Of a DNA stretch of 64,000 nt, positions 8,095-58,500 are shown piece after piece. Within the stretch, counting starts at the first letter, position 1. Each line of letters starts with the position of its first letter. Both the position numbers and the translations under genes were made by a program. Source of the stretch: Zingiber officinale (Eukaryota; Streptophyta; Magnoliopsida; Zingiberales; Zingiberaceae); contig NW_024589893.1 of NCBI RefSeq assembly GCF_018446385.1, forward strand, positions 27,840 through 91,839, written 5' to 3'. The notes beneath the pieces are model-generated. The model worked only from the letters and a program-made list of their open reading frames with translations. It did not search any database and was not told where the DNA came from.

Positions 8095-9452
8095 TGTAAG
8101 AGCATAGGCACGTGAGAGGGGGGATGAATCACATGTATTTTTAAAAAGTTTCTTTTTTTAACTTTAAAAAATAAGTGCGCAGCAGAATAAAATAAACTAA
8201 GTAAGAAAGAATCGAAACAAAAAATCAAAAATAAAGAAAAGGTCAGTTTTACTTTGTTTGGAATTTTCAATGACTCCTACTCCAAGACTCAGACCCCTTG
8301 GACTTATCGATGGATAATCTACTAAAATTCTCTACCGATAAACTCCTGATAGAGTAATCGAGTATAAAGAATAAGAGGAAAGTATAACAGATCTACACTT
8401 CCTTATGCAATAAAAATAATTGACTTTAAATTAAATTGTTACCCAACACAATGATGTCAAAATGGATATGCTCGTGTGTTGGTATCAATCTGTTGATAGC
8501 AATCGAGCATAGTCGAGTAGTAATATGGCAGCAGTGCAAGGTCATAGTGATAGAATTGTCTTAAGCTTGTGTAAAAGATTATCTATCAGCCATTGGTTGA
8601 ATCCCTCTTTTAAACAGTGTTGGAGATTCCTCCAACAATCCGAGGTGCCTCCGATGGTACTTATCTGATCTAGACTTTAGTCTTTATCCATGGGAGGGCA
8701 CCTCCATTAGCTTCGAGGTGCCTTCAATGTGCTCTAAGGTGTCTCCAATCTCCTCCGAGGTGCCTCCCTGCAGTGAAACTCTATCTTCAAAATTTATCTA
8801 TGCAAGGGTGCCTCTGAGTTGTTTAGGGCACCTCCATTCAACTCCAAGGTACCTCCCCGTAGCTCCGAAGTACCTCGAGCACTTATTTATCTGAGGCTTA
8901 CTCTTTGTACTTCATTCCTGCAAAACACACTAGTCCGAATAATAAAAAATATCCTGCAAAATAAAGTTAGCACATTAAAAATAAAATCAATTTATAACTT
9001 AGATCATGTCTCACTAAGACCAAGATTTAGTCATGGTCTCAACTTAAACTTCCCAAATGGATCTAAGTTGGACCAGCACTTACAACCCCACTGGACCTCA
9101 CTTGCCTACTCTTCCCAATGCTTACCTCACTTACCATTTTCCAACTCACTCGACTCTTGACCCACCAGGTCTTTCTACTAGATGCCCCATCTAGAGTTTA
9201 GCCAATTGTCAGATCCCACGAACCAAACTAGACTTCTTGCCATATATCAACTGATTTGGTCTTTCTATACCAATTATCAGGTCCTCTAGACCTAACTAGA
9301 CTTCATCTTGGTGTCAGGTCCCATCAAGTCTTTTAGTCCTGCACATTTGGTAATCGAGTTAGAAAATACAACATCTAATTTTAAATCATTTATTATTCAT
9401 CAAAACATGAATTTCTTTAGACATCCTTATTTAGAGTCCGACATGAGCTTTG
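8095..9452. mobile_element. solo-LTR-like insertion in the Gypsy reverse transcriptase
   Basis: Gypsy coding sequence stops at the start of its catalytic motif (VVYV) near 8094 and resumes only after 16312. The insert begins TGTAAGAGCATAGG and soon has GGGGGGATGAATCAC and GTGCGCAGCAGAA. These words parallel the start of the gag-only element's LTR (GGGGTGTGAATAG, GCGCAGCGGAA), so this looks like a diverged relative's LTR standing alone. Between 8640 and 8880 the word GAGGTGCCTCC and its variants recur with the complement GGGCACCTCC. The right end is masked by the next insertion. No coding capacity seen. Confidence 0.5.
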
Positions 9453-11268
9453 TGTTAGGATCCTTCGTACTCGGCTAGAGAGAGGGGTGTGAATAGCCGA
9501 CCCCAATTGCTCGCGTTTCTTTCTACAAACTAGGGTTAGCGCAGCGGAAACTAAATGCAGAAAGAAAACAGGAGAAGAAGTCAAACCTCTACGCAAGGAT
9601 GTAACGAGGTTCGGAGATGAAACTCCTACTCCTCGGCGTGTCCGTAAGGTGGACGAAGCCTATCAATCCGTCGGTGGATGAGTCCCCGGAAAACCGGCTA
9701 AATCAAACTCCTTGTGGGTGGAGAAACCTCGCCACAATCACTTGCAACAGCAAGCTAAGAGTACAAGAGAATAGCAAGAACAAAATACAACAGGAATGTA
9801 AACACAGTAGCTTGCCTTCTCGTCGACTGGGGTCCCGGATGAAGTAGCAACTTCACGGACAGATGCAACAAGCAACTCAGCAGCAGCTGATCCAGTCGTG
9901 GAATGAAGCTCACACGAAGCTTCGACAAGGAGGAGCTCAACAAAGCTCAAGCACAACAACACTTGGCAGCAGGAAGGAAGAAGAGAGCAGCAGCCCTCGA
10001 CCCCTTTATACCTGCGAAGAAGAAAAGAAACTAGCCGTTGCGTGCAGCTAGAACCTGATCGATGCGTGGACCGATCAGTAACATCTGATCGATGCGGACC
10101 GATCGGAAAAAGCCGCTTGTTCCATCCCTGATCGGTCCATGGACCGATCGGGGACGGAGAGGCGCCAGAGGGGCTTTGTGCTGATCGGTCCCCAGACCGA
10201 TCAGCCCCTCTTGCGCCTCGATCCTGTTCGGCTTCTGATCGACTCCTGATCGGTCACCAGACCGATCAGTTAACACACAGTATGCTACTGATGTGTTACT
10301 GATCGGTCACCAGACCGATCAGAATATTCTCGGTATCACTGGATCGATCACCAGATCGATCCAGCTCATGGTTTTCGCCCAAACCAAGTCCAAACCAACA
10401 TCCGGTCAATCTTGACCTGTTGGTACATTGCGCCTAGCATCCGGTCACTCCCTTGACCTGCTAGGACTCCCCGCTAAGTGTCCGGTCAATCCCTTTGACC
10501 CACTTAGACTTTTCTCTCCGTACCAAGTATCGGGTCACTCCTATGACCTACTTGGACTTCCCATCACCAGATGTCCGATCACCCTCGATCCACCTGGATT
10601 TTTCCTTGCCCGGCTTCACTTACCAGGACTTTCACCTGGCTTCACTCACCAGGATTTCCACACTGTCTAACATCCCAGTTAGGACTTTCTCACTGCCTGG
10701 CTTCACTCACCAGGACTTTCCAACTGCCTAATATCCCAGTTAGGACTTTCTCATTCACCTAGCTTCACTCACTAGGATTTTCACCTGGATTCACTCACCA
10801 GGATTTCCCGACTGCCTGGCTTCACTCACCAGGACTTTTCCCCGTGCCAAACTCCCTGTTTGGACTTTCCCCGTGCCAAGCCTCCATACTTGGACTTTCC
10901 GCGTGCCAAGCTCCTGCTTGGACTTTTCCCCGTGCCAAGTCTCCGTACTTGGACTTTTCCAGTGCCAAGTCTCCATACTTGGACTTTTCGCGTGCCAAGC
11001 TCCCTGCTTGGACTTTTCCCGAATCAGGTCAACCAAGTCAACCTTGACTTACAGTTGAACCAATAATCTCCCAAACATCTATTCTTGTCCCATATCAAGA
11101 ATAGAACTCTCTCACGAGTGTCAAACATAAACATGCAACTCAACTAGGTCAACCTTGACCTAAGGTTGCACCGACAATCTTCCCAAGTCAAACATCAAAA
11201 TACAACTCGAGTCAAGTCACCTCGAGTCGGGTCAACCAGGTCTACCTTGACCTAAGGTTGCACCAATA
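9453..11268 (-). repeat. 3' LTR of the gag-only element (1,816 bp)
   Basis: Direct repeat of 14590-16307. It begins TGTTAGGATCC on the plus strand and ends at GCACCAATA beside the purine tract. It contains clustered GATCGGTC dyads (about 10050-10345) and the long hairpin array (10395-11011). It is about 100 bp longer than its partner because of indels and a replaced block. Confidence 0.9.
10395..11011. repeat. array of about 19 stem-loop units with covarying arms
   Basis: Consecutive units each made of a 5-7 base arm, a loop and the matching arm, joined by a short spacer (often ACTTTTC or ACTTTCC). Arm pairs include CCAACA/TGTTGG, CTAGCA/TGCTAG, CTAAGTG/CACTTAG, CCAAGTA/TACTTGG, CCTGG/CCAGG, CCAAAC/GTTTGG and CCAAGC/GCTTGG. 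The first four units also have an inner stem GGTCA/TGACC. The arms change from unit to unit while the pairing is kept. A second copy lies at 15460-16050 with one unit fewer. It belongs to the LTR and codes for nothing recognisable. Confidence 0.85.
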
Positions 11269-11904
11269 ATCTCCCCCTTTTTAATGTTTGACAAAACTCA
11301 TAATCAAGTTAGGTTAACCCGATAACCTAACTTAAGTTTTCCAACCATCTTCCAATGTCCAATGTTCTTTCCTTGAACATTCTCTGGACATTCTCCCCTT
11401 AGGTTAACCCTATAACCTAACTTGGGTTCTCCAATAATTCTCCCCCTTTTTGACACACATCAAAAAGAATTCCAATGTTCTTCCTCGAACATTCCTTGAC
11501 ATTCTTCCCCTAGCTTAGGTTAACCTGATAACCTAACTTGGGTTCTCCAATAATTCTCCAATGAACACTCTCCCCTTTTTGACACACATCAAAAAGAAAA
11601 AGGAGAGTATCAAGGTCAAGAGTTTCTTCCTAATGAAAGTCCCATACCTTTCATTGAAACTCTTAATTTCCCCCTTGATACTAAACTCAACAATCAACTT
11701 AGTGATAATCCCATATCACTAATCCTCAAAAGTCTTAAGGAGTAACTCCCCCTAAAAGTCAACTCCCCCTTGACAATTAGGTAAAACTCCCCCTAAAGGT
11801 TAACTCCCCCTTGACCATTGCACCAACAATGTCTTTGTGAGTTCCAAACCTTTAGAAATCCACAAAACCCAACTTCCAGCTGAAATTTCAGAAACTGGCA
11901 CGCT

Positions 11905-12095
11905 CTGATCGGTCCCCAGACCGATCAGAAACCCCATGGATCGGTCCCCAGACCGATCAGGCCTTCACCAGATCGCACCAAGCTCTCTGGTTCTTACTGG
12001 ATCGGTCTGCAGACCGATCCATGCTTCACTGGATCGGTCCACAGACCGATCAGGACTTACCTGGATCGGTCCCCAGACCGATCCAGACTCTGATA
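11905..12095. repeat. cluster of GATCGGTC/GACCGATC dyads
   Basis: Five near-copies of a 24-base dyad of the form CTGATCGGTC-N4-GACCGATCAG lie in the non-coding interior of the gag-only element. More copies lie in its LTRs (about 10050-10345 and 15165-15430). Each copy can fold on itself; the four central bases vary most (CCCA, TGCA, CACA, ACCA). Confidence 0.8.
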
Positions 12096-13055
12096 GGCAG
12101 ATTTCTGAAATTTCCTTCCCGAAATTCAGAAATTCCTAGAAAATTCCAGAAAATTCGAAAAATTGTGAAATTTTGAGGATACATTCCTCATAACATATAC
12201 TATCATGGAAAAATAGTTTTCTATGAAAATAACTTCCATTTTTCAATCTTGATACAAAGTTCAAAAACTTTGAAATAGTTCAAGTTTAACTCAACTTTGT
12301 ATCACAATGTTCAATGATGAATGCAATCACTAGGAAAGCTTCATCAAGGTTTTTCAAATCAATTTTGAAATGATTTTAAACCCTTTAATTTAGGATCATA
12401 ATCTTAGGACTATATGTACATGACTTGTACACAAGTTTTCCCTATGATCCTCCATTTCTTGAATTAGGCTCATCTAGGTACAAGAACTATGCACCTTGAT
12501 CCTAACTCATGATCCTAATATCTCACACACATCTAAAGTGTATCAAACACATCCATGGCAATTTTGATGTGAGATATGGGTTTAGGTATCTTAGACTAAG
12601 GTCTCATGCATTTTCTAAACACAAATTTGATCTCAATATCAAAATATGTTTTTCATCCTTAAATCAATTCAATTGATTATTAATGCAAGAGATGATGACA
12701 TGGCATGGCATATGGCAACCAATCATGGCAAGTTAGCACAAATAAAATACCTAAATTCCCTATCTAAGTATCCTTAGCCTTAGCTAACTTAAAATCTAAC
12801 CCTAGATTGTCCATATATCCCTAAGAGAAAACCAAAATCCCAATTATGGTATTTCTCTAGGTTTTCTTAAATTGTGCCAAATAAGATTAAAATCGATATT
12901 TTTCAAATATGGCACAATTTACTCTTCAAGGAGTAAATTATAATTCTTTTTCATTTTCAAAGGTTATCAAAACCTTGAAAATGCTCCTTGAGTGTCAATT
13001 TCCTCAAAGTTGGGTTAACTACCCTTCTAATTGGAGTTGACACTCTCTAACCCAT

Positions 13056-14588
13056 CTATGGGATAGAGAAGATGCTCCTAGGAACCCAATACCTATTTGA
13101 GCTCATTGGGTTCACTAAATATTCACTAGGGATAACTTCCCTAGCAACCCTCCTAATGACCCTCTTAGGCTTTGAAGCCTTGGTCATTTGGGACTCATCA
13201 AGATCAACTCTAGGGGTGACTCCCCTTGTGACCTTGGTGGTGGTCTTCCTAGCCCTAGGTTTTGTTCCATAATCGAATGGAACATTGTGATAAGTGGGCT
13301 TGACCACTTGGGACTTAGATTTGTGACCCAAACCTTTCTTGTCCTTGGACTTGGGTTTTTGACCCTTAGACCCTAGAGTTGACTTCTCTAAATTTTTAAG
13401 GGCCTTTTCCAAAGTATCAAGTCTTGACCTCAAGATTTGATTCTCCTTCTCTAATACCTCAATTTTTAATTTGTCATTTTTCTTTGAGGTATTCCTAGGC
13501 ATATGTCTAGTAGTTTTGGGATTTCTACCTAGATTATCCTTAACCTTAGATGAGTTATTCCTAGGGTTGACATTTCTAGAGTTGTCCTTATTCAAGCTAA
13601 CATGTTTAGCACCTAAGCACATATATTGATTTCTATAATTAACATGCTTATCATTATTAGCAATTGCAATCAAACTACTAGCATGTGTTCTATTTGAATT
13701 GCAAAAGTGAGCCTTAGAGATTACCTTAGGGTTTGCCTTAGCTCCCCCTATCGATGTGCTCGTCTTCTTGTCCTTGTGAGGTTGCCTCCCCCTCGGACAT
13801 TGGCTCCGATAATGTCCCCTTCGCTTGCATTGGAAGCACACCACGTGCTCCTTGTTCTTGCGTATCGGGACTCCGGCTTCCTTGATCTTGGGCGCCGGTG
13901 GAGTCTTTCTAACCCTCTTTGGACATTTACTCTTATAATGTCCAAATTCCCTACACTCAAAGCACATTATGTGTAATTTGCTAGAAATTAAAATGCTTGA
14001 GTTACCTAGGTTTGAGGATGGATGAAAGCTCTCTTCTTCATCCCTTCCGGAGGTAGAAGCTTCTTCTTCTTGCTCCGTACTTGAGGAAGAACTCTCCTCT
14101 TCTTCTTTAGATGTTGAGTGGCCCTCAACTTCTAAATCCACATCTCCATGAAGTGAGCTACTTAGCTCACTTGACTCCTCTTCATTACTTGAAGTGGAGC
14201 TCCCCTCATGGAACTTGGCCAAATTGTTCCACAATTCCTTGGCATTGTTGTAACCACCTATCTTACACAATATATCGTTAGGTAATGAGAATTCAAATAT
14301 TTTCATTACCTCGTCGTTGACTAGGGATTGGTGGACTTGTTCCTTGGTCCACTTCTTCTTCTCTAGGGTTTCTCCTTTCTTTTCCATCGGAGGCTTGAAC
14401 CCTAATTGAACACAACTCCAATTTTCAAGGTTAGTCATAAGAAAATATTTCATTCTTACCTTCCAAAACGCGAAGTCGTCGTGATCGTAGAAAGGTGGAA
14501 TTGTGATGTCTTCTCCGAGTTGATCCATCTCTAGCTCGTGCTCCCCCGGGTGTTGATCCAACGAAGAGCGACCTCGCTCTGATACCAC
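13056..14588 (-). CDS. gag-like protein of the gag-only element (510 aa)
   Basis: A single open frame starting within bases of the primer site. The N-terminal part (about residues 25-130: PPFYDHDDFAFWKVRMKYFL, then CVQLGF and NAKELWNNLAKFHEG) matches Copia-lineage gag. An acidic, serine-rich stretch follows, then two CCHC zinc knuckles (CFECREFGHYKSKC and CFQCKRRGHYRSQC), a lysine-rich region and a short coiled-coil-like segment (LKIEVLEKENQILRSRLDTL). It would coat element RNA in particles. No enzyme domains follow. This is an element gene, not a host gene. Confidence 0.85.
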   Translation of the reverse strand: MVSERGRSSLDQHPGEHELEMDQLGEDITIPPFYDHDDFAFWKVRMKYFLMTNLENWSCVQLGFKPPMEKKGETLEKKKWTKEQVHQSLVNDEVMKIFEFSLPNDILCKIGGYNNAKELWNNLAKFHEGSSTSSNEEESSELSSSLHGDVDLEVEGHSTSKEEEESSSSSTEQEEEASTSGRDEEESFHPSSNLGNSSILISSKLHIMCFECREFGHYKSKCPKRVRKTPPAPKIKEAGVPIRKNKEHVVCFQCKRRGHYRSQCPRGRQPHKDKKTSTSIGGAKANPKVISKAHFCNSNRTHASSLIAIANNDKHVNYRNQYMCLGAKHVSLNKDNSRNVNPRNNSSKVKDNLGRNPKTTRHMPRNTSKKNDKLKIEVLEKENQILRSRLDTLEKALKNLEKSTLGSKGQKPKSKDKKGLGHKSKSQVVKPTYHNVPFDYGTKPRARKTTTKVTRGVTPRVDLDESQMTKASKPKRVIRRVAREVIPSEYLVNPMSSNRYWVPRSIFSIP

Positions 14589-14589
14589 T

Positions 14590-16307
14590 TGTTAGGATCC
14601 TTCGTACTGGGGTGTGAATAGCCGACCCCAATTGCTCGCGTTTCTTTCTACAAACTAGGGTTAGCGCAGCGGAAACTAAATGCAGAAAGAAAACAGGAGA
14701 AGAAGTCAAACCTCTACGCAAGGATGTAACGAGGTTCGGAGATGAAACTCCTACTCCTCGGCGTGTCCGTAAGGTGGACGAAGCCTATCAATCCGTCGGT
14801 GGATGAGTCCCCGGAAAACCGGCTAAATCAAACTCCTTGTGGGTGGAGAAACCTCGCCACAATCACTTGCAACAGCAAGCTAAGAGTACAAGAGAATAGC
14901 AAGAACAAAATACAACAGGAATGTAAACACAGTAGCTTGCCTTCTCGTCGACTGGGGTCCCGGATGAAGTAGCAACTTCACGGACAGATGCAACAAGCAA
15001 CTCAGCAGCAGCTGATCCAGTCGTGGAATGAAGCTCACACGAAGCTTCGACAAGGAGGAGCTCAACAAAGCTCAAGCACAACAACACTTCGCAACAGGAA
15101 GGAAGAAGAAGAGGTTCTCGCGCAGCAGCAGTCCCGGGCGGAAGACCTGTTTCGCTTGGCCGAGATCCTGGACCGATCAGTGACATCCCTCTGCTACTGT
15201 TGATGGTGACACTCGGCTGACCTTCTTTCATCCTCTCGTCGCCCGATGGATCGGTGTCGATCTCGTCGATCAGGAGATGGGGGATGACGGTGATATCCTC
15301 TGGTGCCGATCGACTCCGATCGGTGCCAGACCACGGTAGTCTCACGTGATATGCGTCGCAACTACTGATCGGTCACCGGACCGATCAGAATATTCTCGGA
15401 TCACTGGATCGATCACCAGATCGATCCAGCTCATGGTTTTCGCCCAAACCAAGTCCAAACCAACATCCGGTCAATCTTGACCTATTGGTACATTGCGCCT
15501 AGCATCCGGTCACTCCCTCGACCTGCTAGGACTCCCCGCTAAGTGTCCGGTCAATCCCTTTGACCCACTTAGACTTTTCTCTCCGTACCAAGTATCGGGT
15601 CACTCCTATGACCTACTTGGACTTCCCATCACCAGATGTCCGATCACCCTCGATCCATCTGGATTTTCCCTTGCCCGGCTTCACTCACCAGGATTTCCAC
15701 ACTGCCTAACATCCCAGTTAGGACTTTCTCACTGCCTGGCTTCATTCACCAGGACTTTCCAACTGCCTAATATCCCAGTTAGGACTTTCTCATTCACCTA
15801 GCTTCACTCACTAGGATTTTCACCTGGATTCACTCACCAGGATTTCCCGACTGTCTGGCTTCACTCACCAGGACTTTTCCCCGTGCCAAACTCCCTGTTT
15901 GGACTTTCCCCGTGCCAAGCCTCCATACTTGGACTTTCCGCGTGCCAAGCTCCTGCTTGGACTTTTCCCCGTGCCAAGTCTCCGTACTTGGACTTTTCCA
16001 GTGCCAAGTCTCCATACTTGGACTTTTCGCGTGCCAAGCTCCCTGCTTGGACTTTTCCCGAATCAGGTCAACCAAGTCAACCTTGACTTACAGTTGAACC
16101 AATAATCTCCCAAACATCTATTCTTGTCCCATATCAAGAATAGAACTCTCTCACGAGTGTCAAACATCAACATGCAACTCAACTAGGTCAACCTTGACCT
16201 AAGGTTGCACCAACAATCTTCCCAAGTCAAACATCAAAATACAACTCGAGTCAAGTCACCTCGAGTCGGGTCAACCAGGTCAACCTTGACCTAAGGTTGC
16301 ACCAACA
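14590..16307 (-). repeat. 5' LTR of the gag-only element (1,718 bp)
   Basis: Starts TGTTAGGATCC right beside the primer site and ends GCACCAACA right before the CTTTG duplication. It holds the second copy of the hairpin array (15460-16050). The block at about 15090-15370 is unlike the matching block of the other LTR, although both flanks are almost identical. Confidence 0.9.
15460..16050. repeat. second copy of the stem-loop array
   Basis: The same order of units as 10395-11011, inside the other LTR. It lacks one CCTGG/CCAGG unit and shows a few single-base differences, one of which weakens the arm pairing of the first unit. Confidence 0.85.
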
Positions 16308-18745
16308 CTTTGTACCTTGATCACCTCTAAATTATTTTTGAGAAACTAAAGGTAGAACACTTGTTCGTAAACAATAAGAAGTGTTCATGGCCTTAGTTTT
16401 GTTTCTTGGATTTATAGTGTCTACTGATGGTGTTCGTGCAGATCCATCAAAGATAGACACAATCTTAAAGTGATAGTAGCCAAAAATCATTCACAACGTC
16501 CAAAGTTTCCATGGATTGGTCTCTTTCTACCGTCGATTCATCCAGAATTTCAGCACCTTGATTGCTTGCGAGTTCATATGGACTGAAGCGGCTACGACTA
16601 GTTTTCAACTAGTGAAGCAAAAGATAATCGAAGCACCCGTTCTAACACTTCCAGATTTTGATAAACTATTTGAAGTAAATTGTAGTGCATCTAGAATTGT
16701 TGTCGATGGTGTTCTAAGTGAATCGAGACGCCCTATTGCCTTCTTCAACGAAAAACTATCCGATGCCAAGAAAAAATACTCTACCTATGACTTGAATTCT
16801 GCGCTGTTGTGCATTCATTAAAGCATTGACGTCATTATCTTGTGCATAAAGAATTTATCTTGTTCATTGATTATGAGACTTTAAAGTACATCAACAACTA
16901 ACACAAGTTAAGTAGTCGACACGCCAAGTAGCTAAACTATTTGCAGGAGTTTACCTTCACGTTAAAGCATCAATCAAGGAGTCTCAATCGCATTGTGGAT
17001 GCTTTAAGTTGCCATTCTTCCCTATTTACTACCAGGATCATTATAGTTGTCAGCTTTGGATCTTTCCCTGCTTTAAGTTGCAATGATTTTATTCTACACA
17101 ATGGTTATATATTTTGTGGAATATGATTATGCATTCCAGACGGTTCCTTAAGGCAGCACACTATCAGTGAATTGCATAATGAGGAATAGCTCGGTCAAGA
17201 TAAGACATTAGCTCTCATCTCGTCCGACTTCTATTGCCCCAAGCTAACCAGTAAAGTAGCTCATTTTGTGGATCGTTGCTTTGTCTGCCAGCAATCTAAG
17301 GGAACCCTCACCAATGCTGATTTGTATACTCCCTTACCAATTCCCGAAACCCCTTGGTGCGAGGTCAATATGGATTTCATATTAGGTTTACCTCACAGCC
17401 AATGGATTGTAGATTCTATTCTAATTGTGGTGGGATGATTCTTCAAGATGGCTCACTTTGTGGTGTGTTGAAAAATCATAGATGTTGTTTGTAATGCCAC
17501 CCTCTTCTTCAAAGAGATTGTGCATTTACATGGTATTCCTCAAACTATCACTTCATATTATACTATTAATTTTGCTAATCAATTTAGGAAGAATTTATGA
17601 GAAAAGCTAGGGACAAAGCTAAACTTCAGCAACACCTATCACCCTCAGACGGATTGTCAAATCGAGGTAGTGAACCAAAGCTTAGTAAATCTTCTGAGAT
17701 GTCTCATAGGAACCAAACTAAAGCAATGAAATCTTGTTTTACCACAAACAAAATTTGTATACAACAAATCAAAGAACAGGACCACCGGTTTGAGCCTTTA
17801 CACTACAAAAAAACTACAATTTAGGGACGAATATTTGGAACGAATAATATTCGATGCAAATTTGCAACAGGTTTTGCAACGAAAACAAAATTTGTCGCTA
17901 ATTAGCAACTAAAATAGCAATGAAATAAATTCGTCGGATATTAGCAACAAATATATTTTCGTCGCAGAATTCGTTGTTAATCAGCGTCGAAATATAAAAT
18001 TTGTTGGAAAATTTATGCAATTTTGCGACAAATCTCTGGATTTGTTGCTAATTTCCAACAAATATATATTCGTCACCAAATTTGTCGCAAATTAGGAACG
18101 AAATTTCAAATTCGTCCCTAATTTTTTTTAGGTTAGACTTTTAAAAATTGGAAGATGACCATAGAGAGCTCAGAATGACACAAAACAAGTTTCTATGGAC
18201 TCGTATCGATCTCCTGATCTTATTAGTAGGGTAAAACATATTTTTATACAAATACACTGATGTTTATAAATTTTTTACACCGAACGAGCAATAAATATTT
18301 TATCTTCCAATTTTTAAAAGTCTAACCCAAAAAAAAATTAGGGACGAATTTAAAATTTTATCCCTAATTTGGGACGAACTTCAGAGTTCGCCCTAGATTA
18401 GGGACAAATTTCTACATTCGTTGCAAAATTTATTTTTTTTCTAAAATCAAAATAAATACGTATAAAATACGGAAGGTGGACCTACAGAGTTCGGAATCGC
18501 ACGAAACAAGTTCCTATGGGTTTGTATCGATCTCCCAATCACAATGATGGCCACAAATATTTTATAAAACTTTTTAATCGTAATAATAATTGGACGGAGT
18601 CTATAACTATAAGCCTTAAGACTTGGCTTAAAAAGAGTTAGAGTTTGAAAATGGTTAGGTGATTTTGATATCCAAAAATCACTCACCTATATATTGTGTG
18701 AAAAAAAATGTTTGAGGCCATCATTGTGATCGGGTGATCGATACT

Positions 18746-24585: not shown

Positions 24586-25950
24586 TGATAAACCCGATTT
24601 TGTCGTGATTTGGGTATCAAATAATTTCACCGAACTCCTTTCTACACTAATGCAGCATAGGATGACTCGGATCGTCTCTCTCAATGAATGTAAACAGTAG
24701 GATGATAGTCTTAGGATCAATTATTGTTGGCTTGGGTTTTCTAGACAAATTGGAATTTAAGAAATGACTTATGAACAAATAGAAGAAATAAGAACCAAAA
24801 TTTATGCTACATTTGCAAATTCAATTCATGGAAAGTAACAAGAAAGGAATCTACTAATCTAAACTACTGCACTGAAAGAAATAGTAACCAAGAATAGCCT
24901 ATTGCAACCATTAAGCAAACCTAAACTGTTTAGACATCAAGAACAGTACTCTTAACCGAAGGTTTCAAAGCAATAGCAAGAGAATTTGAATCAACTATGC
25001 ATTGATCAACTACAACAAACTAAAATTCAAACAGAGATAAAGACATTATCATTTAGAGGATTCAAACTAATCAAATTGGAGAAACCCTAGATTAGATTTG
25101 ATGTGCGTCGGATGAAGAACTCGGCAATGAAGACAAACAGAATAACTTGGCATTGTTGATGATCGGAAAAGCTTCAATCAGAGATGGATGCGGAGCTTCA
25201 AGAAAGAAAGATAACCAGTCGGAAGACGAAGGAATCGGCTCAACCCACCGAATTGCTTCTCCTTCTTTGCTTCTTCTTCCTCGCACGAAGTCGCGGCAGA
25301 AATTGGTGTTCAGATGGTTGAGATGGCATCGCCAGCTGGAAGATGGGTGATGATCGGAGGAAGGGAAACGCCCTTGACCTCAGCAACTCGCCGGCGGTGG
25401 AATGGATCCAGATCAAGATCGTCGGAGCGCCCTCCTCTGTCTTTGACGCGAAGGAACTGTAGAAGTTCCCCCGAATACTGTAGCTTCTCATCCCTTTAAA
25501 TCTAATCTCAGTTCTGTGATGGACGGCTGTGATTATTCTGCCTCTGATCCAACGGTGAATCTTAATCTAAATTTGATCCAAAGGTTCAAATCTTCATCAA
25601 GGGACCTGATCTACTCTCTCCTAGCTCGGATGGACCAAATCTTCAATGGATGGCTTAGATCTCTCTTAATCTTGAATGGACGATCCAGATTACTCCAGAG
25701 CTTGATCTCTTCATTTAAGCTTGGATTCGTGTTCAATCTGGTTTGGTCAACCTCGGATCCATTCCCTTGATGCCTACAAAGAATATAACCAAATATTAGC
25801 ATCAAATACCACAAATATGATATAATTTGCAATTAGGTCCATAAATGGCTCTAACTCATGAAACATGGTGTAAACATGACTTTAACATATGAGAAGATTA
25901 AAATGTATGCCTATATGGATCAAAATGTCATAACAAAATGATAGTTATCA
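24586..25950 (-). repeat. 3' LTR of the Athila-type element
   Basis: 1,365 bp, plus-strand ends TGATAAACCCG and GATAGTTATCA. Nearly identical to 32752-34116. Confidence 0.93.
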
Positions 25951-32751: not shown

Positions 32752-34116
32752 TGATAAACCCGATTTTGTCGTGATTTGGGTATCAAATAATTTCACCGAA
32801 CTCCTTTCTACACTAATGCAGCATAGGATGACTCGGATCGTCTCTCTCAATGAATGTAAACAGTAGGATGATAGTCTTAGGATCAATTATTGTTGGCTTG
32901 GGTTTTCTAGACAAATTGGAATTTAAGAAATGACTTATGAACAAATAGAAGAAATAAGAACCAAAATTTATGCTACATTTGCAAATTCAATTCATGGAAA
33001 GTAACAAGAAAGGAATCTACTAATCTAAACTACTGCACTGAAAGAAATAGTAACCAAGAATAGCCTATTGCAACCATTAAGCAAACCTAAACTGTTTAGA
33101 CATCAAGAACAGTACTCTTAACCAAAGGTTTCAAAGCAATAGCAAGAGAATTTGAATCAACTATGCATTGATCAACTACAACAAACTAAAATTCAAACAG
33201 AGATAAAGACATTATCATTTAGAGGATTCAAACTAATCAAATTGGAGAAACCCTAGATTAGATTTGATGTGCGTCGGATGAAGAACTCGGCAATGAAGAC
33301 AAACAGAATAACTTGGCATTGTTGATGATCGGAAAAGCTTCAATCAGAGATGGATGCGGAGCTTCAAGAAAGAAAGATAACCAGCCGGAAGACGAAGGAA
33401 TCGGCTCAACCCACCGAATTGCTTCTCCTTCTTTGCTTCTTCTTCCTCGCACGGAGTCGCGGCAGAAATTGGTGTTCAGATGGTTGAGATGGCATCGCCA
33501 GCTGGAAGATGGGTGATGATCGGAGGAAGGGAAACGCCCTTGACCTCAGCAACTCGCCGGCGGTGGAATGGATCCAGATCAAGATCGCCGGAGCGCCCTC
33601 CTCTGTCTTTGACGCGAAGGAACTGTAGAAGTTCCCCCGAATACTGTAGCTTCTCATCCCTTTAAATCTAATCTCAGTTCTGTGATGGACGGCTGTGATT
33701 ATTCTGCCTCTGATCCAACGGTGAATCTTAATCTAAATTTGATCCAAAGGTTCAAATCTTCATCAAGGGACCTGATCTACTCTCTCCTAGCTCGGATGGA
33801 CCAAATCTTCAATGGATGGCTTAGATCTCTCTTAATCTTGAATGGACGATCCAGATTACTCCAGAGCTTGATCTCTTCATTTAAGCTTGGATTCATGTTC
33901 AATCTGGTTTGGTCAACCTCGGATCCATTCCCTTGATGCCTACAAAGAATATAACCAAATATTAGCATCAAATACCACAAATATGATATAATTTGCAATT
34001 AGGTCCATAAATGGCTCTAACTCATGAAACATGGTGTAAACATGACTTTAACATATGAGAAGATTAAAATGTATGCCTATATGGATCAAAATGTCATAAC
34101 AAAATGATAGTTATCA
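32752..34116 (-). repeat. 5' LTR of the Athila-type element
   Basis: 1,365 bp, the same ends as the 3' LTR. The tRNA-Asp primer site follows within five bases in element sense. Confidence 0.93.
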
Positions 34117-57918: not shown

Positions 57919-58500
57919 ATATCAAGGAGAAGGATCTAGGATCAATTCGTCTCAAGAAGAAGGACAAGGATCTCAAGATCCTTTGAATGATTCCGGTAAA
58001 TTTTATGATTATTTCGGTGGTTTATTAGGAGTTGATTTTCCAGAATATTAAATATTGATTTGTTTAGTATTACAATGTTATTGTGGTTATTTAAATGTAT
58101 GTTTACTTTAGTGGTTGTGGCATCTTTAAATTGTATGATGGAGTTATGTATTTTGAAATTTTAAATGTTTAATTGTGTGTTTGTTATGAAATTGTCAATA
58201 TTATAAATTTTAATATATTTATAATCTTAGTAATATAACAAATATTTTAAATATTAATTATTTAAGTTAATAACTAATATAAATTTATAATATATAAAAT
58301 TTACATAATAAATTCAATTAAATTAAATAATTTTAATTTATAATATTTAAGAATATTTTAAATATAAATTTAATATTATAATAAATTATATATAAAAAAT
58401 TCGTACTCGCACCATTTTGGTGCAAGTTTTGAGATTTCCATTGGAAAGGATTTGATATCTCTTTTACACTAAAATGGTGTAAAAGGGCACCGATTGGAGA

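Follow-up and report, generated by a model that had tools for sequence, protein, structure and literature searches.

Hairpin units with co-changing arms in the U3 of a Sirevirus-like, gag-only LTR element of Zingiber officinale

Introduction

Why does a long terminal repeat (LTR) carry a long series of short hairpins whose arms differ from unit to unit and yet pair? The question is raised by a 64,000-nucleotide stretch of Zingiber officinale contig NW_024589893.1 (the window), for which a reading of the sequence alone had proposed that folding, and not sequence, has been kept in such a series. Matched changes in the two arms distinguish a need for the fold from a need for the sequence, and the large copy number of the array (3990 first-look candidates) makes the two testable by cross-species comparison. 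A puzzle raised before is why such elements retain hairpins to which silencing may also be drawn (PMC10760457).

Results

The element and its coding content

The sense strand of the element that carries the hairpins is the minus strand of the window. Its main features are as follows.

14590-16307, minus strand: 5′ LTR (sense TGTTGG...TAACA), from motifs and the 5-bp flanking repeat
14576-14587, minus strand: primer binding site with junction CA-AGTGG-TATCAGAGC, by motif match (PMC2829016)
13056-14528, minus strand: gag from its first ATG, with CCHC knuckles (open frame 13056-14591, 511 aa)
11440-11447, 11746-11753, 11763-11770, 11787-11794 and 11804-11811, minus strand: further polypurine tract (PPT) octamers, by motif match
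11271-11278, minus strand: terminal PPT AGGGGGAG, with AT between it and the LTR, by motif match
9453-11268, minus strand: 3′ LTR, starting with TA instead of TG, from LTR comparison
10005-10010, minus strand: TATAAA, the sole TATA[AT]A on the sense strand in 9400-16400

The 5-bp flanking repeat is CAAAG, at 16308-16312 and 9448-9452, and the same sense-strand scan of 9400-16400 found no TATA[AT]A in the 5′ LTR of this copy. Gag has a Pfam zf-CCHC match (E 1.6e-5) and, as read by eye only, a putative coiled coil downstream of the CCHC knuckle. It is the sole sense open reading frame of at least 120 aa in the element interior; pol was not found in the element, where the other sense linker frames reach at most 60 aa and seven of seven have no Pfam family above the cut-off. 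The short form seems usual among the copies seen, since 17 LTR pairs, picked by eye among the matches listed, are spaced 4,971-6,292 bp apart. Among 84 scored gag matches (of 135,766 first-look candidates), 34 have no stop, in a search that bears on gag alone.

Judged by motif, the non-coding signatures of the element match those published for Sireviruses. The published 5′ LTR/primer binding site junction, CA-A(T/G)TGG-TATCAGAGC (PMC2829016), is exact in the window and has eight exact occurrences in the fetched loci with duplicates removed. In the same set, 27 of 28 readable junctions have the attachment site AGGGGGAG-AT/TG, the sole exception being the window's own 3′ LTR, with TG changed to TA. 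The 550 bp that precede the 3′ LTR contain six PPT octamers, and two more lie inside gag; the published mean near the 3′ LTR of Sireviruses is four (PMC2829016). A CGG-CCG palindromic cluster lies upstream of TATA, with GATCGGTC/GACCGATC hairpins at 10130-10322 and TATAAA at 10010-10005. An inverted repeat flanks the PPT, with arms at 11279-11292 and 11187-11200 that match at 13 of 14 bp, the left arm bordering the octamer. Compared with the published Sirevirus means it is short and reaches deeper into the LTR, and nearly half of classic elements have such a repeat too (PMC2829016).

Hairpin units of the array

10395-11011, minus strand: hairpin array of 19 units in the U3 of the 3′ LTR, from stem search and unit matching
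10395-10597: long units D1-D5 of this array
10609-10833: run of A and B units of this array
10847-11011: C units of this array
15460-16050, minus strand: partner array in the 5′ LTR, from alignment and stem search

The sequence-only reading had placed about 19 successive hairpins at 10395-11011, and this was confirmed: 19 units were located (18 by ungapped matching to ten templates), all six arm pairs that it quoted are present, the inner stem GGTCA/TGACC is common to the first four units (D1-D4), and the partner array at 15460-16050 has 98.8% identity in aligned bases, with 26 gap columns that amount to about one unit. On the plus strand, type A units read CCTGG-CTTCACTCA-CCAGG, type B units pair CCTAA.. 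with ..TTAGG, and type C arms are CCAAGT, CCAAGC or CCAAAC with their complements; the short units are set apart by GGACTTTCC-like spacers. The array lies between the PPT and TATA and starts 257 bp inside the LTR.

The array holds nine perfect stems of at least 6 bp, whereas 100 dinucleotide shuffles gave 1.27 on average and never more than 4. Crude hairpin density is not extreme, as the array's stem-bp total is reached by 35 of 317 same-size sliding windows; most of the top 20 hairpin-dense windows listed lie inside this element, and one, at 58201, is AT-rich. Rfam gave no matches in 9400-16400 at gathering scores.

Neighbouring palindromes

Palindromes are not confined to the range 10395-11011 that had been given for the array; they are also found at 10072-10386, in 11012-11270 and in the linker at 11904-12086.

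10072-10364, minus strand: palindrome cluster with near-constant arms GATCGGTC/GACCGATC and a CGG-CCG core, between the array and TATA, from stem search (PMC2829016)
11012-11268, minus strand: U3 start with GGTCAA/TTGACC palindromes, from stem search
11904-12086, minus strand: linker palindrome cluster of the GATCGGTC type, from stem search

The 257 bp of 11012-11268 include ten W-box-like TTGAC/GTCAA cores, where shuffled sequence has 1.17 on average and at most 5. Such cores are linked to WRKY factors. The linker CGG-CCG palindromes at 11904-12086 stand in an element with no detected env; published linker copies of the palindromic motif accompany an env gene (PMC2829016).

The palindrome zone by TATA (about 330 bp before the first unit; ~10065-10394 and 15114-15430) differs strongly between the two LTRs of an element in all nine readable pairs (three of 12 were unreadable), with flanks that are 97.8-100% identical between paired LTRs. 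Single-base gaps in this zone fall at the middle base of CAG/CTG in 41 of 126 cases, against a background of 5.2%, and two LTRs have 45 CG and 10 CWG there, against 26-28 CG and 28 CWG in their partner LTRs. These differences could possibly result from nanopore miscalls at methylated CHG sites or from real hypermutation. Elsewhere in the window, a direct repeat of 1365 bp and 99.6% identity (24586-25950 and 32752-34116) probably represents the LTRs of another element.

Covariation among the units of one array

The units provide 14 distinct arm pairs, in which Watson-Crick pairing holds at 67 of 70 outer pairs. With arm partners shuffled, the mean is 48.5 and the maximum 61 of 70, and none of 100,000 shuffles reaches 67, a result that is not a strict probability because shuffling breaks the relatedness of the arms. 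At least six two-sided replacements link seven distinct five-pair stems. The proposal that arms differ from unit to unit and yet pair is borne out by these counts. Tandem expansion alone would account for repeats within the A, B and C types, and not for the differing paired arms or the slot changes given below; the array is not only an expansion of one palindrome, because compensatory arm change is seen both between units and between lineages at orthologous slots.

Covariation between two source lineages

From 80 loci we cut 79 arrays (one locus, with no right anchor, was dropped), of which 73 are distinct, with 12 to 27 units each by template matching. A second source lineage was traced via locus L063. 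Three single-copy slots were then read in 89 distinct loci, with LTR pairs and alleles unmerged. D2 pair 2 is C-G in 51 loci and T-A in 18, with no mixed pair and 20 unread; D3 pair 2 is T-A in 49, C-G in 17 and T-G in one, with 22 unread; and D4 pair 1 is C-G in 33, T-A in 18, and T-G and C-A in one each, with 36 unread. Mixed pairs make up three of 189 readings, unread loci apart.

A strict D2 pattern classed 44 of the 89 loci (27 as lineage I and 17 as lineage II) and left out 45, including copies with a broken outermost D2 pair. When these loci were read with no letters fixed in advance, the majority letters of the two lineages differ at seven of 68 stem sites and three of 92 loop sites. 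The seven stem differences are one complete pair each in D2, D3 and D4, and a one-sided change of G to A in D5 that is seen in 10 of 15 lineage II loci. Under independent and uniform change, three or more complementary pairs would arise among seven changes with a probability of ~1.4e-5. The slot changes themselves represent only about three events, and the one-sided D5 change weakens the result only slightly and does not alter the weight that we give to each explanation below. Arm letters have changed with pairing kept or renewed, both among the paralogous units of an array and between two lineages at three orthologous slots, where whole base pairs were switched; both observations support the earlier proposal of compensatory change.

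Two further apparent double changes, D5 A-T to G-C and CCCGG/CCGGG in type A, were not counted, since CWG sites occur in both of their arms and are possibly miscalled. Lineage II also has an extra tandem unit, CAGAGA/TCTCTG, alternating with CGGAGA/TCTCCG (loci L085, L086 and L082); TCTCCA occurs in L082, and the fourth L085 copy reads CGGAGG.

Strand and stem constraint

The sequence-only reading had proposed that folding of RNA or single-stranded DNA has been kept, and here we found no strand-specific support for sense-RNA folding. In a nearest-neighbour network of unit variants (188 changes at stem sites and 120 at loop sites), stem decay has no strand bias, with pair loss to sense G-U in 40 cases and to sense C-A in 41. 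Fold z-scores of the whole array are similar, at -7.9 for sense and -8.3 for antisense (30 shuffles each; the sense value is -6.1 when 20 shuffles are used). Folded unit by unit, 62 of 73 arrays are slightly more stable as sense than as antisense strand; since the whole-array z-scores are alike, we attribute this to composition.

Stems are generally no more conserved than loops: counted by copies, stem change is higher than loop change in five of ten unit classes and lower in the other five, and the A loop hardly varies. Some one-sided breaks are common, namely C.C at the outermost pair of D2 (26 of 58), T.C in D3 (12 of 65), C.A at pair 3 of A (77 of 424; in 56 of these 77 the unit is the first of type A in its array) and C.A in Ct (23 of 247). 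Common and private stem breaks differ only weakly after cleaning. At thresholds of 2, 3, 4, 6 and 10 loci, stems without CWG give p values of 0.079, 0.028, 0.025, 0.049 and 0.16; over the same thresholds p is 0.067-0.12 for all classes, 0.17-0.68 for D1-D4 alone and 0.005-0.35 for B and C alone. A first allele signal of this kind (p 0.003) weakened once LTR pairs had been merged and 68 of 1370 units removed, which either had been displaced by indels or belonged to another class.

Discussion

The proposal that folding and not sequence has been kept stands in part: pairing was kept or renewed through change, while the strand comparisons gave no support for sense-RNA folding and one-sided breaks are common. 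Kept folding of U3 hairpins, at the RNA or DNA level, is the best explanation of the array that we can offer, and we offer it tentatively. As part of the same explanation, the element would be a gag-only Ty1/copia retrotransposon of Sirevirus type, and the array would form the upstream portion of its U3 palindrome module. Since the units keep no common arm sequence, a single sequence-specific protein would not be what reads the arms. The kept trait would rather be a U3 nucleic acid that folds into short hairpins, which could be the 3′ U3 of genomic RNA, its single-stranded cDNA or extruded DNA. The short hairpins may serve to space the loops and the GGACTTTCC-like spacers, and the array is probably part of the element's cis-regulatory region. 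With more reserve, we suggest that the U3 could be a selected structural array in which only pairing matters; if true, the palindrome clusters of Sirevirus LTRs would be RNA/cDNA folding elements and more than repeated enhancer sites.

Given the results that speak against selection on folding (no strand bias, one-sided breaks and a weak allele contrast), template switching from arm to arm could also yield two-sided changes. Here pairs would be renewed by mutation with no selection on the fold: the polymerase, in reverse transcription or in a later replication, would fold back and use one arm as the template for the other, turning a change in one arm into a matched pair at once. The few intermediates (the three mixed readings among 189) are consistent with this, as are the two-sided steps of the variant network, eight of which kept pairing and two did not (two of the eight come from one unit of another class), the adjacent outer G-C pair that D4 of lineage II also gained (read by eye) and the range of 12 to 27 units over the 73 distinct arrays. 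Four exact inverted-loop patterns occur zero times in the 73 arrays, against 376 (A), 205 (B) and 173 (Ct) forward forms, which argues somewhat against frequent template switching; steps from mismatch to proper pair are seven of 23, where about one third is expected at random. On this evidence we regard renewal by mutation as somewhat unlikely.

An ordinary Sirevirus repeated-motif enhancer, made of decayed tandem dyad sites for DNA-binding proteins and with the apparent covariation reflecting a few inherited unit types, would suit the position of the array, whose start 257 bp inside the LTR and upstream of TATA is within the 200-400 bp after the PPT/LTR junction at which Sirevirus motifs start (PMC2829016), as well as the nearly invariant A loop and the enriched W-box-like cores beside the array. 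Described motifs have one consensus per element, with 66.5-100% identity (PMC2829016), yet the array arms differ between units and pair, and both sides changed at orthologous slots, which makes this account improbable. That the hairpins are kept as, or merely recognised as, host small-RNA templates is suggested by analogy with maize Sireviruses, whose palindromes are small-RNA hotspots (PMC5311732, PMC10760457); with no evident benefit to the element that would keep pairing, we consider it very improbable. The packaging or dimerisation role that had been suggested for element RNA is unlikely, because the array lies in U3, upstream of TATA, and not in the 5′ leader.

The sequence-only reading knew of no described LTR with this design; that there is none is not supported, as palindrome clusters in the U3 of Sireviruses, with their location, were published by Bousios et al. 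2010 (PMC2829016), so a hairpin-rich LTR design is not unknown. Against this known background of hairpin-rich U3 regions, coordinated change of the two arms is unusual, and what appears to be new here is that three single-copy slots differ between source lineages by a complete, still-pairing base pair. Among the titles and abstract openings listed, none describes compensatory arm change in such LTRs. Bousios et al. 2016 reportedly concerns a palindrome-rich cis-region of maize Sireviruses that, like the U3 studied here, is hairpin-prone and variable. Work on maize links Sirevirus palindromes to small RNAs (PMC5311732, PMC10760457).

Compared with the repeated motifs described for Sirevirus LTRs (PMC2829016), the element is alike in its many U3 palindromes upstream of TATA and in the CGG-CCG cluster that adjoins the array. 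It differs in that most of the 14 distinct arm pairs of the array lack a CGG-CCG core and in that two-sided changes separate units and lineages; in that the CGG-CCG cluster is placed further in, about 0.9-1.2 kb into the LTR; and in that TATA is ~1.26 kb into a 1.8 kb LTR and not in the LTR middle. The element also agrees with the definition of TR-GAG non-autonomous LTR retrotransposons, which have LTRs and gag, or gag and AP, as their only domains (PMC6022998); gag is the only domain found here. That name says nothing of U3, and the non-coding signatures of this element point to Sirevirus.
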